A model generated the notes under the pieces. The model was not told the origin of the DNA. It saw nothing but the letters and a program-made list of their open reading frames with translations, and searched no databases. From Alteriqipengyuania abyssalis (GTDB lineage: Bacteria; Pseudomonadota; Alphaproteobacteria; Sphingomonadales; Sphingomonadaceae): a stretch of DNA of 64,000 bases. This document shows, piece by piece, positions 30,998 through 33,841 of the stretch; within the stretch, counting starts at the first letter, position 1; every line of letters starts with the position of its first letter. Position numbers and translations under genes: made by a program. Location of the stretch: assembly GCF_019857185.1 (NCBI RefSeq), contig NZ_JAHWXP010000004.1, positions 186,001-250,000 on the forward strand, given 5' to 3'.

Positions 30998-31072
30998 AGG
31001 CGCGGTTTCGCGACCCGGGCGGCACGCATCGATAACCGCCCTCACTCATTCAGCCCGATGACGGAGAGACCG

Positions 31073-31864
31073 ATGGCCAGCGCGCCGCAACAGCCCCAGC
31101 TTCCCATGTTCTATAACGACCTGATGCCGCTCAACACGCGGGACCACCTGAAGTTTCGCAATCGCATGCTCGATTCGGCACCCTGGCTGTCCAAGCAGCA
31201 CGTCGTTCCGCTGACCGGCGACGAGTTCATCCAGGCCGCGCGCCATTTCCCGGTGATCTTCTCGTCGGGCGACAACCCGCTGCCGCTGGCGCTGATGGGT
31301 CTCAACGAAGGCGTGAACACCTTCTTCGACGATGAAGGCAAGCTGATCGATCAGGTCTACGTGCCGGCCTACATCCGCCGCTATCCGTTCATCCTCGCCA
31401 AGCTGACGCCCGAAACCGACGAGCTGTCGCTATGCTTCGACCCGACCTCGAATGCGGTCGGCGAATTCGACGAAGGCGAGCTTCTGTTCAACGAAGATGG
31501 TTCGACCACCGAACAGACCAAGGCGATCCTCGATTTCTGCGAGAAGTTCGAGCAGGCGGGTCAGCGGACCCGCAACCTGACGCAGGAACTGCTCAAGCAC
31601 GACCTGCTGATGGACGGTGAAGTCTCGATCGAACGCGCCGAACTGCCGGGCAAGCCCTACGTCTATCGCGGTTTTCGCATGATCGATCAGGCCAAGCTGG
31701 CCGAGATCGATGCTGAGACCCTGAAGCAGTGGAACAAGGAAGGGATGCTCGCGATCATTTACGCGCACCTCACCTCGCTCGAACTGATGCGCAACATCTT
31801 CGGCCGCCAGGAACAGCAGGGCAAGATGCCCGCTCCGACCGAGCAGGACGGCGCCCCGAACTAG
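31073..31864 (+). CDS. SapC-family protein
   Basis: 263 residues matching the SapC family (PF07277): MFYNDLMPLNTRDHLKFRN, HFPVIFSSGDNPLPLALMGL, YVPAYIRRYPFILAKLT, and FDEGELLFNEDGS. The family was named after a Campylobacter S-layer secretion locus, but most members are cytosolic proteins of unknown role often found in Sphingomonadales and Caulobacterales. No S-layer or type I export gene is nearby. ATG 31073 has GGAGAG 4 nt upstream; the ATG at 31058 is possible. A structured RNA region follows immediately. Confidence 0.85.
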   Translation: MASAPQQPQLPMFYNDLMPLNTRDHLKFRNRMLDSAPWLSKQHVVPLTGDEFIQAARHFPVIFSSGDNPLPLALMGLNEGVNTFFDDEGKLIDQVYVPAYIRRYPFILAKLTPETDELSLCFDPTSNAVGEFDEGELLFNEDGSTTEQTKAILDFCEKFEQAGQRTRNLTQELLKHDLLMDGEVSIERAELPGKPYVYRGFRMIDQAKLAEIDAETLKQWNKEGMLAIIYAHLTSLELMRNIFGRQEQQGKMPAPTEQDGAPN

Positions 31865-31872
31865 GGCTGACA

Positions 31873-31913
31873 GGGTGCGTCGCAGCAGTTCTTGACTTTG
31901 CTGCAACGCACCC
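31873..31913. promoter_or_regulatory. 14-bp interrupted palindrome overlapping the sRNA promoter -35
   Basis: GGGTGCGT-C-GCAGCA (31873-31887) and TGCTGC-A-ACGCACCC (31899-31913) form an almost perfect inverted repeat with an 11-nt centre. The TTGACT -35-like box at 31892-31897 lies in the centre. It could be a terminator-like stem for sapC (no U-run follows), or an operator controlling the RNA gene downstream. Confidence 0.5.
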
Positions 31914-31920
31914 CAGATTC
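31892..31920 (+). promoter_or_regulatory. Candidate sigma-70 promoter for the small RNA
   Basis: TTGACT (31892-31897) and CAGATT or AGATTC (31914-31920), spaced 16-17 bp. This predicts a transcript starting near 31925, exactly where the first hairpin of the candidate RNA begins. The -10 match is weak; the call rests on the position. Confidence 0.4.
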
Positions 31921-31924
31921 AGCG

Positions 31925-32035
31925 TGTCCGGGCGGAATTCCCCCCTCATAGCCGCCCCGGACAGGCACGCTTTCAAGCGTGCTTCCTCCCTGAACCTTGG
32001 CCACCTCGTGCATTCGTGCACGGGGTGGTTTTTTT
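31925..32035 (+). ncRNA. Candidate small RNA with exposed UUCCUCCC (MmgR/suhB-like)
   Basis: About 110 nt between convergent genes with clear secondary structure. Hairpin one is TGTCCGGG (31925-31932) with CCCGGACA (31956-31963). Hairpin two is GCACGCTT (31965-31972) with AAGCGTGC (31975-31982). Then comes an unpaired segment with TTCCTCCC (31983-31990), followed by a strong terminator hairpin and T-run. Exposed CCUCC-type anti-Shine-Dalgarno segments between hairpins are typical of alphaproteobacterial trans-acting sRNAs, including the MmgR/suhB group (Rfam RF00519). Membership of that family is from memory and needs a covariance search. Confidence 0.6.
32001..32035 (+). terminator. Rho-independent terminator of the small RNA / sapC
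   Basis: CCACCTCGTGCA (32001-32012), TTCG tetraloop, TGCACGGGGTGG (32017-32028): a 12-bp stem with one G-U pair, followed by TTTTTTT. The T-run overlaps the stop codon of the convergent N-formylglutamate amidohydrolase gene (32034-32036). Confidence 0.9.
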
Positions 32036-32978
32036 ATTCGGCAGCCAGCGGTAGCCCGTAATCGCGGCGATCCGGTACGATCTCGTCCGCCAGCGTGCGC
32101 ACCAGTTCGGCAATCAGCCGCGCGACCCCCGGCAGACGGGGGCTGGTCCCCGCCAGACGCGCATCGAGATAGAGCGTGCGACACACTTCCAGTTGGAGTG
32201 CATTGATACCCAGCCCGGGCCTGCCGTGCCGGTCGAGCACGTAGCCACCGGCATAGGGCCGGTTATGCGCCACGCCTCGATCGCTGGACCCCAGGAACTG
32301 CAGCGCGCGGCCCGCCACGCCATCCTCGCATGAGGCACCGAAACGGTCGCCGATCACGAATTCGGTGGGCCGCTGGCCCGGGTGGCTGGCGGCAAGCGGC
32401 GGCATCGAGTGCAGATCGATCAGCAGGGCCACGCCCCAGGTCCTGCGGATCGCATCCAGCGCCCGGGCAAGAGCGCGGTGATAGGGTTCGTGAATCAGCG
32501 CGATTCGCTCCGCCACCTCGGCGCTGGTCAGATCCGTGCGCCAGATTTCGCCCACCCCCGAAACGCGGCGGGGGACGAGGCCGAGCCCGCTTCGCGCGCG
32601 ACGATTGGCGCTTGAGTGCGCAGGCCTGTCCGCGGGCGCATCGGCGACCATCGACCAGTCCATGTCATCGGGTGCCCGGTTGAGATCGAGCATTGCCCGC
32701 GGGGCATGTGCAATCAGCGAGGCAGCGCCCGTCTGCCGCGCCACCTCCAGCGCCAGCCGATCGACGTGGCGATCCTCCAGCCGCAACTGGGCGATGGCCG
32801 GATTGCGCATCGCATCCGCAATCCGCGCAGGATAGGCGCGACCGCCATGCGGTGCCGCGATCAGGATCGGAATTGCAGTGTTCTCAAGATTCTCGAGGGT
32901 GAAGGCCGGCGCCCCGCTGCCGGGGATCATTCCACCTGCAATGCCCTGTCCCGAATCGCTGCCGCGCGCGCCTTCCAT
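32034..32978 (-). CDS. N-formylglutamate amidohydrolase family protein
   Basis: 314 residues of the FGase family (PF05013), zinc-dependent hydrolases that release glutamate from N-formylglutamate. Key segments are visible: IAAPHGGRAYP, LEDRHVDRLA, HAPRAMLDLNRAP, LIDLHSMPPL, and NRPYAGGYVLDRHG, which carry the metal-binding His/Asp/Glu residues. ATG 32978 is used; the in-frame start at 33035 would overlap the cpdR promoter region. Divergent from cpdR, an arrangement seen in several alphaproteobacteria. No other histidine-utilisation gene is present, so a Hut role is uncertain. Confidence 0.85.
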   Translation of the reverse strand: MEGARGSDSGQGIAGGMIPGSGAPAFTLENLENTAIPILIAAPHGGRAYPARIADAMRNPAIAQLRLEDRHVDRLALEVARQTGAASLIAHAPRAMLDLNRAPDDMDWSMVADAPADRPAHSSANRRARSGLGLVPRRVSGVGEIWRTDLTSAEVAERIALIHEPYHRALARALDAIRRTWGVALLIDLHSMPPLAASHPGQRPTEFVIGDRFGASCEDGVAGRALQFLGSSDRGVAHNRPYAGGYVLDRHGRPGLGINALQLEVCRTLYLDARLAGTSPRLPGVARLIAELVRTLADEIVPDRRDYGLPLAAE

Positions 32979-33077
32979 GTTCGCCGTGCTGAACCGGAAC
33001 ACAGGGTGTGTCAAAGCAGGGCAAGGCACTGACACGCCAAAGATTCATTAAGTGGTGGCCGCTATGGACGAGGGTCT

Positions 33078-33470
33078 ATGAGCAAACCCACCTTTCAGCG
33101 GCGAATCCTTCTGGCGGAGGACGAGGAAGCGATGCGGACCTATCTGACCCGCGCGCTCGAAAAATCAGGCTACGCAGTCGATTCGGTCGATTGCGGAACG
33201 GCGGCCCTGCCCCTGCTCGAAAGCGGCGATTACGACCTTCTGCTGTCCGATATCGTGATGCCGGAGATGGACGGGATCGAACTCGCCCAGCGGTGCGCGG
33301 AGATCAGCCCGGAGACGAAGGTGATGTTCATCACCGGATTCGCGGCGGTTTCGCTGAAGGCAAGCGCCGACCAGCCGCAGGCCAGGGTGCTCTCGAAACC
33401 GTTCCATCTACGCGATCTGGTACTTGAGGTGGACCGGGTTTTTGCGGACGCGAGAGAGGCCCTTCTGTAA
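33078..33470 (+). CDS. cpdR: Single-domain response regulator CpdR
   Basis: 130 residues, one receiver domain and no output domain. The phosphoacceptor is Asp58 in LLLSDIVMPEMDG, the acidic pair is in LLAEDEEAMR, and the conserved Lys is in RVLSKPFHLRDL. In Caulobacter CpdR is phosphorylated through CckA and ChpT. Unphosphorylated CpdR delivers substrates to ClpXP, which controls CtrA turnover. The kinase gene cckA lies in this window, about 11 kb away. Its gene neighbour, an N-formylglutamate amidohydrolase, also matches known cpdR loci. Confidence 0.85.
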   Translation: MSKPTFQRRILLAEDEEAMRTYLTRALEKSGYAVDSVDCGTAALPLLESGDYDLLLSDIVMPEMDGIELAQRCAEISPETKVMFITGFAAVSLKASADQPQARVLSKPFHLRDLVLEVDRVFADAREALL

Positions 33471-33552: not shown

Positions 33553-33627
33553 GGGCGTATAGCTCAGGGGTAGAGCACTATGTTGACATCGTAGGGGTCG
33601 GAGGTTCAAATCCTCCTACGCCCACCA
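33553..33627 (+). tRNA. tRNA-Val (GAC)
   Basis: 75 nt with an encoded CCA end (33625-33627). The acceptor arms GGGCGTA (33553-33559) and TACGCCC (33617-33623) pair fully. The D-loop AGCTCAGGGGTAGAGC, the anticodon stem CTATG/CGTAG with loop TTGACAT (anticodon GAC) and the T-arm GGAGGTTCAAATCCTCC are all standard. Confidence 0.96.
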
Positions 33628-33644
33628 TTGGGGTTTTCGAAAGG

Positions 33645-33671
33645 GGCGTCGCGGCGAGCGGCGCCTTTTTT
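33645..33671 (+). terminator. Rho-independent terminator of tRNA-Val
   Basis: GGCGTCGC (33645-33652), loop GGCGA, GCGGCGCC (33658-33665), then six T's. The stem is 8 bp with one G-U pair and lies 17 bp after the tRNA. Confidence 0.88.
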
Positions 33672-33841
33672 CGTATCTGGCTGCAAGCTCCCCTGCCCCG
33701 CCGCCAGCGCGGCATTGCTGGTTACCCCGCCGCATCGGCACAGCGCTTTGCGTCCGCGATCCTTGCACCCGCCCGGACCTCTGCTAAAGCCGCGCCAGAT
33801 TCACCCACAAATTGCAACGCACGGACCAGCAGGGACGGATA

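Follow-up and report, generated by a model that had tools for sequence, protein, structure and literature searches.

Introduction

Small RNAs of the alphaR8 group (Rfam family RF00519), with SisA of Caulobacter crescentus and MmgR (also sm8 or suhB) of Sinorhizobium meliloti, are the closest described systems for the RNA gene analysed here. The excerpted text of PMC12559287 places alphaR8 RNAs in all Alphaproteobacteria except the Rickettsiales, in most species as a single copy adjoining the gene of an N-formylglutamate amidohydrolase (FGase), sisA included, and calls the hairpin upstream of the core weak. In the same excerpt, SisA is described as an Hfq-dependent RNA whose core pairs with mRNA and which represses mRNAs directly; a point mutation in the core abolished repression, a matching change in the target restored it, and the sponge CrfA inactivates SisA. 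In Sinorhizobium, sm8, the same RNA as suhB, lies between SMc04042 and SMc04043 (PMC2573895, excerpt), and for the control of mmgR by NtrC and AniA an excerpt of PMC8401924 reports a dyad. SuhB of Sphingopyxis granuli TFA is given a length of 61 nt in an excerpt of PMC6563040, and excerpts of PMC10746234 and PMC3927594 ascribe the motif CCUCCUCCC to alpha-r14 and SmelA075.

In this study, we analysed a stretch of 64,000 nt from Alteriqipengyuania abyssalis (contig NZ_JAHWXP010000004.1, positions 186,001 to 250,000), here called the window, in which a small RNA gene was predicted between sapC and a convergent gene. We are confident that this RNA is what the FGase-linked alphaR8 RNA has become in the Sphingomonadales, a diverged form that scores under the Rfam threshold and presumably regulates mRNAs in trans.

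Materials and methods

Alignment A1 was made with MAFFT without structure from 29 sequences; L037, which lacks CTCCCTGAAC, was left out. The covariance model R1 was built from 27 of these sequences, and L035 and L038, which have odd hairpin lengths, were left out of R1 as well as of alignment A2. Alignment A3 contains 80 distinct rows fitted to the covariance model. The named loci are 80 of at least 120 matched stretches and were fetched by an exact linker pattern, so that their linker identity is given by construction, which is not the case for their stem covariation and promoter. The promoter set of 80 sequences consists of the window and 79 of the 80 named loci, L083 with its cut 5′ end being left out. 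The comparison with the class was done with 28 members, leaving out L259 and L262, in which the script did not find the motif.

Results

Features of the locus

The following features were assigned in the window.

31058–31864, plus strand: gene of a SapC family protein (sapC), upstream neighbour, with stop codon at 31862–31864 (PF07277, E 2.9e-67)
31873–31913, plus strand: inverted repeat, its loop (31889–31897) containing the −35 element (−27.0 kcal/mol, z −5.72)
31892–31919, plus strand: predicted promoter with TTGACT (31892–31897), 16 nt spacer and CAGATT (31914–31919), read from the sequence and conserved in relatives
31924–32035, plus strand: predicted small RNA gene of about 111 nt (R1 match 31924–32034, 109.7 bits)
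31925–31963, plus strand: hairpin 1, loop AAUUCCCCCCUCAUAG with a C-run (folded alone, z −2.85, equalled by 1 of 200 shuffles; two-sided pair changes)
31964–31983, plus strand: hairpin 2 with 8 pairs and UUCA loop, −11.8 kcal/mol (alone, z −4.69, equalled by 0 of 200 shuffles; two-sided changes)
31982–31991, plus strand: alphaR8-type 10-mer CUUCCUCCCU, with 9 of 10 letters of the alphaR8 core
31984–31998, plus strand: linker UCCUCCCUGAACCUU, predicted single-stranded, with anti-Shine-Dalgarno core CCUCCC (unpaired in the predicted fold, aligned to the RF00519 core)
31999–32035, plus strand: intrinsic terminator with stem 31999–32030, TTCG loop (UUCG in the RNA) and T-run to 32035 (pattern scan; alone, z −7.02, equalled by 0 of 200 shuffles)
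32034–33035, minus strand: FGase family gene, convergent neighbour (PF05013, E 9.1e-62; synteny)
33078–33470, plus strand: gene of a CpdR response regulator, cpdR (NF046022, 186.6 bits, cut-off 180)

The 5′ end of the small RNA was deduced from the promoter and the start of the model match and the 3′ end from the T-run; with its last bases the terminator reaches into the FGase stop codon. In the predicted fold, the first T of TTCCTCCC (31983–31990) forms a G-U pair which closes hairpin 2, leaving 31984–31998 open, and this linker with its CCUCCC is presumed to be the pairing site.

Predicted fold and covariation

The fold of 31925–32035 has a minimum free energy of −55.6 kcal/mol (z −6.2), which none of 200 shuffles equalled. 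In A1, 91.3% of the cells are paired and two-sided changes with pairing kept occur in 21 of 30 base pairs, including 8 of 10 in hairpin 1 and 6 of the 7 modelled pairs of hairpin 2. The two-sided cells number 108, compared with 30.9 ± 6.2 after shuffling and 16–30 when the partner is slid by 1–3 columns. In A3, which was fitted to the model and is therefore biased towards it, two-sided changes occur in 26 of 31 pairs, among them all 17 pairs of hairpins 1 (10 of 10) and 2 (7 of 7), with 563 cells versus 168 ± 12 after shuffling. RNAalifold recovered hairpin 2 and the terminator from the 29 sequences of A1 and did not predict hairpin 1, whose region is badly aligned by MAFFT; single-sequence folds have a hairpin at this position in most rows. 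Within the loop of hairpin 1, 78 of 80 relatives have CCC and 56 of 80 have CCCC (29% after shuffling for CCCC), and because its C-runs are commoner than after shuffling, this loop is possibly a second pairing site.

Promoter region

A TTG[AC] −35 element is present at the right distance in 77 of the 80 sequences of the promoter set (displaced control, 0/80). Scores of at least 9 of 12 for TTGAAA/TATATT are reached by 65/80, compared with 0/80 for positions 40 nt upstream and 0.3% of shuffles. Since a scan of the window sequence with a strict sigma-70 pattern listed the terminator and no promoter, the promoter call rests on the comparison of relatives.

Inverted repeats with other arm sequences, pairing at −15 kcal/mol or better, were detected in 25 of 48 loci with sapC directly upstream and by the same criterion in 2 of 30 other loci (controls 18–21%). 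The repeat at 31873–31913 is probably a 3′ hairpin of the sapC mRNA which overlaps the small RNA promoter. Also, a TGCTGCA dyad is found in the promoter spacer (window 31899–31905). Dyads of the form TGC-N0-4-GCA precede 17 of 28 alphaR8 RNAs of the class (55-nt region, shuffled 5%) and occur in 7 of 78 Sphingomonadales sequences including the window (30-nt region, shuffled 3%), the two regions differing in length; they may correspond to the dyad described for mmgR control (PMC8401924, excerpt).

Distribution and gene neighbourhood

The DNA comparison with 60 genomes, the own genome included, gave matches in 30, and the places found by blastn contained CTCCCTGAAC exactly in 29/30; homologues of sapC and/or the FGase gene adjoin 29 of the 30 matched places. 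In the own genome, R1 matches the window copy with 109.7 bits, the next best match having an E of 0.43. At E ≤ 0.001, R1 detected the RNA in 318 of 396 sampled genomes of the Sphingomonadales, belonging to 74 of 84 genera, and gave no match in the other 78 of the 396; at E ≤ 1e-4, matches were obtained in 41 of 385 genomes of the class, 37 of these 41 outside the order. The named loci, which include Sphingomonas, Sphingobium, Novosphingobium, Erythrobacter, Qipengyuania, Aurantiacibacter, Croceicoccus, Tsuneonella and Rhizorhabdus, are all matched by R1 (80/80, one match cut by the locus end).

Of the 80 named loci, 72 carry the FGase gene on the opposite strand; five of the remaining eight end within 550 nt, and three, all from Sphingobium, lack it over more than 1.4 kb. 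In these three (L086, L126 and L147) the RNA is kept 3′ of sapC, with no FGase homologue in the >1.4 kb downstream. The sapC gene lies on the same strand at less than 400 nt in 49 of the 80 loci and 660–3700 nt away in 21, and it was not found in 10, six of which were searched over more than 1.4 kb upstream. Because the RNA is present where sapC is distant or not found, it is independent of sapC. One locus, L121 (CAJCHR010000165.1), is titled Actinobacteria bacterium 21-64-8; its arrangement of sapC, RNA and FGase gene is typical of the Sphingomonadales, so that the title or the binning looks wrong.

Most of what the preliminary description had proposed for the structure of this region agrees with these data. 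The probable small RNA between sapC and the convergent gene has its promoter, hairpins, linker and terminator all conserved in relatives, its start at about 31925 matches the beginning of the R1 match at 31924 and the −35 position in 77/80 sequences, and the strong terminator with TTCG loop was recovered by fold statistics and pattern scan alike. The coordinates given there deviate by one or two bases at most; the first hairpin was delimited exactly, while the 31965–31982 given for the second is only its inner part; likewise, the stretch containing CCUCC is open from 31984 on, the first T of the motif named there (31983) being paired in the predicted fold. The base pairs covary in relatives, as would be expected of such an RNA (21 of 30 pairs in A1), and hairpins and CCUCC segment are conserved rather than lost, with 318/396 genomes matching R1.

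Relationship to alphaR8

The window RNA aligns end to end with RF00519 and scores 29.8 bits, below the gathering cut-off of 41. Of 20 relatives' loci among the matches listed, 16 match RF00519 with 26.8–38 bits, and none of the 20 scanned reaches the cut-off. Eight R1 matches from outside the order were fetched first, and each of them passes RF00519 (46.8–71.1 bits); the FGase gene adjoins five of these eight and 11 of 20 further ones. An RF00519 search of 190 genomes of the class gave an FGase gene in 24 of the 30 loci listed (convergent in 23, one not resolved), these loci being high-scoring rather than a random sample and in part identical with loci of other fetched sets. For the other families of the order, FGase was found in 12 of 17 RF00519-passing loci among the matches listed, and part of the FGase-linked RF00519-passing loci also have cpdR. 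All six FGase-linked RF00519-passing RNAs tested from these families match R1 (31.2–44.7 bits). The clearest intermediate is L307 of genome G049, identical in place with L038, which scores 55.6 bits for RF00519 and 44.7 bits for R1. In Sinorhizobium, we take SMc04043 to be the FGase gene and the next gene to be cpdR1.

With the alphaR8 RNAs the window RNA shares the FGase-adjacent place, the PF05013 gene being convergent, and the Rho-independent terminator at the 3′ end. It does not carry the exact 10-nt core UUUCCUCCCU, and a hairpin is present upstream of the core, strong at −11.8 kcal/mol where the alphaR8 hairpin is called weak. The exact 10-mer occurs in only 6 of 80 sequences (L083 left out), and the first two letters of the window 10-mer are paired in the predicted fold. 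CCUCCCU is constant in the named loci, which were however fetched by it. The mean stability of the second hairpin is −12.2 kcal/mol (n = 80, again leaving out L083) versus −8.1 kcal/mol in the 28 class members.

The MmgR/suhB group, which had been suggested as one of two possible affiliations, is right by descent because of the shared linker and architecture, the FGase/cpdR place and the FGase-linked RNAs which both pass RF00519 and match R1. The Rfam search proposed as a check nevertheless ended below threshold (29.8 versus 41 bits), and the RNA is not the sole one of its kind in the genome, an RF00519-passing SuhB-type copy (45.6 bits) being located elsewhere. Also, sapC as genomic context is valid for the 49 loci with sapC within 400 nt, but FGase is the more constant neighbour (72/80). 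In the literature listings searched, no report of this Sphingomonadales form was found; Lagares 2016, on alphaR8 distribution, may already contain it, since it is the source cited in PMC12559287 for the presence of alphaR8 throughout the Alphaproteobacteria other than Rickettsiales.

A second copy in the genome

The RF00519-passing copy of the own genome (L001, 1501–1576; G000:C2:459557-459632) has the core CCUCUCCC. Its flanking genes were named by eye as encoding a CoA-transferase subunit and a CDC48-like ATPase. Among the fetched RF00519 candidates of this genome, L001 is the only one with the appearance of a genuine second copy; L003–L008 were judged by eye as chance matches, mostly terminators, and the one at window 33614–33681 overlaps the end of a tRNA. 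This tRNA gene (33553–33624; RF00005, 68.6 bits) lies between cpdR and an isocitrate dehydrogenase gene.

RF00519-passing copies were found in 50 of 60 relatives, the own genome included. The window's own family, which according to the named records would comprise Sphingomonadaceae and Erythrobacteraceae, accounts for 13 of the 30 loci listed, all of them with CCUCUCC, none with FGase and nine with relatives of the CoA-transferase and/or ATPase neighbours of L001; in the 17 loci that belong to the order's other families, the sequence is CCUCCC. R1 matched none of four SuhB-type copies (L001 and three others) at E ≤ 1. The simplest reading is that in the own family the FGase-linked copy diverged below the threshold and a SuhB-type copy elsewhere keeps the score. 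The two copies would have arisen by duplication, and TFA SuhB, judged by its size, would be an L001-type copy.

Discussion

Conservation of the predicted promoter, the covarying hairpins, the linker, the terminator and the genomic place is established here at the level of sequence comparison, while expression, Hfq binding, action in trans and targets of the RNA are inferred. The RNA would be transcribed independently from a housekeeping-type promoter and stop at a terminator of its own. If it acts like SisA, it would be bound by Hfq and would use the exposed CCUCCC linker to pair with several mRNAs at ribosome binding sites rich in purines, blocking their translation. The blocking of ribosome binding sites is likewise deduced from described relatives. 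We are dealing with a conserved three-hairpin RNA in the place of MmgR and SisA which most likely silences mRNAs by pairing, a largely expected result; the alphaR8 form of the window is sub-threshold and ordinary in kind, with a clade-specific twist.

It is conceivable, though we rather doubt it, that in the window's branch (Sphingomonadaceae and Erythrobacteraceae by the named loci) the ancestral FGase-linked alphaR8 is now a different regulator. It would have acquired the C-rich loop 1 as a second site of pairing and a longer linker that became fixed, the promoter dyad of the family would have disappeared for the most part, and the old MmgR role would be shared with the separate SuhB-type copy, the two acting on different sets of mRNAs.

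Complementary start sites are unevenly enriched. The pattern CAGGGAGG-N3-10-ATG has 10 sites in the own genome versus 2 in the reversed control, among them cydB-like, AhpD-like and GGDEF protein genes as read by eye. For AGGGAGGA-N2-9-ATG, the 10 genomes of the genus contain 47 sites versus 30 in the control; judged by their letters, two of these sites reappear slightly altered in four of the 10 genomes (own, G003, G005 and G009), and no target site common to all 10 was found by this pattern. Purine runs before ATG are expected anyway. With start positions estimated by a crude rule, pairing of the linker with the start regions of 29 TonB-dependent receptor genes had a mean of −12.2 kcal/mol versus −10.1 for the small control of 28 window reading frames (one-sided p 0.014), and values of −14 or better were reached by 9/29 and 6/28, respectively; TonB-dependent receptor mRNAs are taken as a lead only. 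These uneven enrichments would also suit an RNA working mainly as a sponge or decoy, whose C-rich segments pair with other RNAs or with a protein and which represses no mRNA; the presence of two such segments, loop 1 and linker, and the strictly conserved sequence of the linker and of the 5′ arm of the terminator, due in part to how the loci were fetched, point in the same direction. We consider such a role very improbable, since the studied relative SisA is a direct repressor of mRNAs and the sponge in that case is CrfA, which targets SisA (PMC12559287, excerpt).

It is very improbable that the RNA is unrelated to alphaR8 and resembles it by convergence, as a CCUCC small RNA of, for example, the cuckoo/alpha-r14 kind. 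The score below the RF00519 threshold would fit, the motif is CCUCCUCCC in 34 of 80 sequences, and two of 20 loci gave weak matches to ar14, with 28.4 and 28.8 bits against a cut-off of 58.8. In 31700–32200, no ar14 match was obtained up to E 10. While the alpha-r14 motif is located in each of three hairpins (PMC10746234, excerpt), CCUCCUCCC is not found in the unpaired parts of several hairpins of the window RNA, which has a single UCCUCCC between hairpin 2 and terminator and a loop 1 of CCCCCCUC instead of CCUCC. Descent from alphaR8 is further favoured by the same genomic place, by a common linker, which continues through AAC(C)UUGG(G)CC to the terminator, and by those RNAs beside FGase in the order's other families which match both models.

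The least probable reading, in which the stretch merely forms the 3′ untranslated region and extended terminator of sapC and has no separate RNA function, draws on the strong terminator and the proximity of sapC on the same strand (49/80 loci) and was rejected on the −35 element kept in 77/80 sequences, the presence of the RNA where sapC is 660–3700 nt away (21/80) or not found (10/80) and the covariation in the first two hairpins, for which termination alone would give no cause.

For an FGase-linked alphaR8 RNA, the divergence in the Sphingomonadales has practical consequences. As the Rfam threshold was not reached by any of the 20 loci scanned from relatives, annotation based on this threshold would miss the RNA, which is present in 318/396 sampled genomes of a large environmental order, and in the own family the copies recognised by Rfam are located elsewhere in the genome (13 loci looked at). 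Work on carbon control by SuhB in sphingomonads would have a sibling RNA at the FGase/cpdR locus to consider, and with a model like R1, a subfamily extending over the order would be gained.

Compared with described systems, the exposed CCUCC anti-Shine-Dalgarno segments of the alpha-r14/cuckoo RNAs (NfeR1, CcsR) recur in the window RNA, but CcsR RNAs are co-transcribed with a DUF1127 gene (PMC10253847, excerpt), whereas the window RNA is followed by the convergent FGase gene. SuhB of S. granuli TFA and L001 have, like the window RNA, a small hairpin, a C-rich linker and a terminator, and belong to the alphaR8 lineage by Rfam score; the SuhB-type copies differ from it in the core CCUCUCCC, the absence of an R1 match (4/4) and the absence of FGase (13/13 loci of the own family). 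Unlike in alphaR8, the window 10-mer begins with C and hairpin 2, whose sequence is free, has greater length and stability, and the Sphingomonadales form has a C-rich loop in hairpin 1 (78/80 relatives). The alphaR8 RNAs themselves, SisA of C. crescentus and MmgR/sm8/suhB of S. meliloti, are like the window RNA convergent with the FGase gene and partly accompanied by cpdR, and they have in common with it a hairpin, the CCUCCCU linker and AAC(C)UUGG(G)CC passing into an intrinsic terminator.
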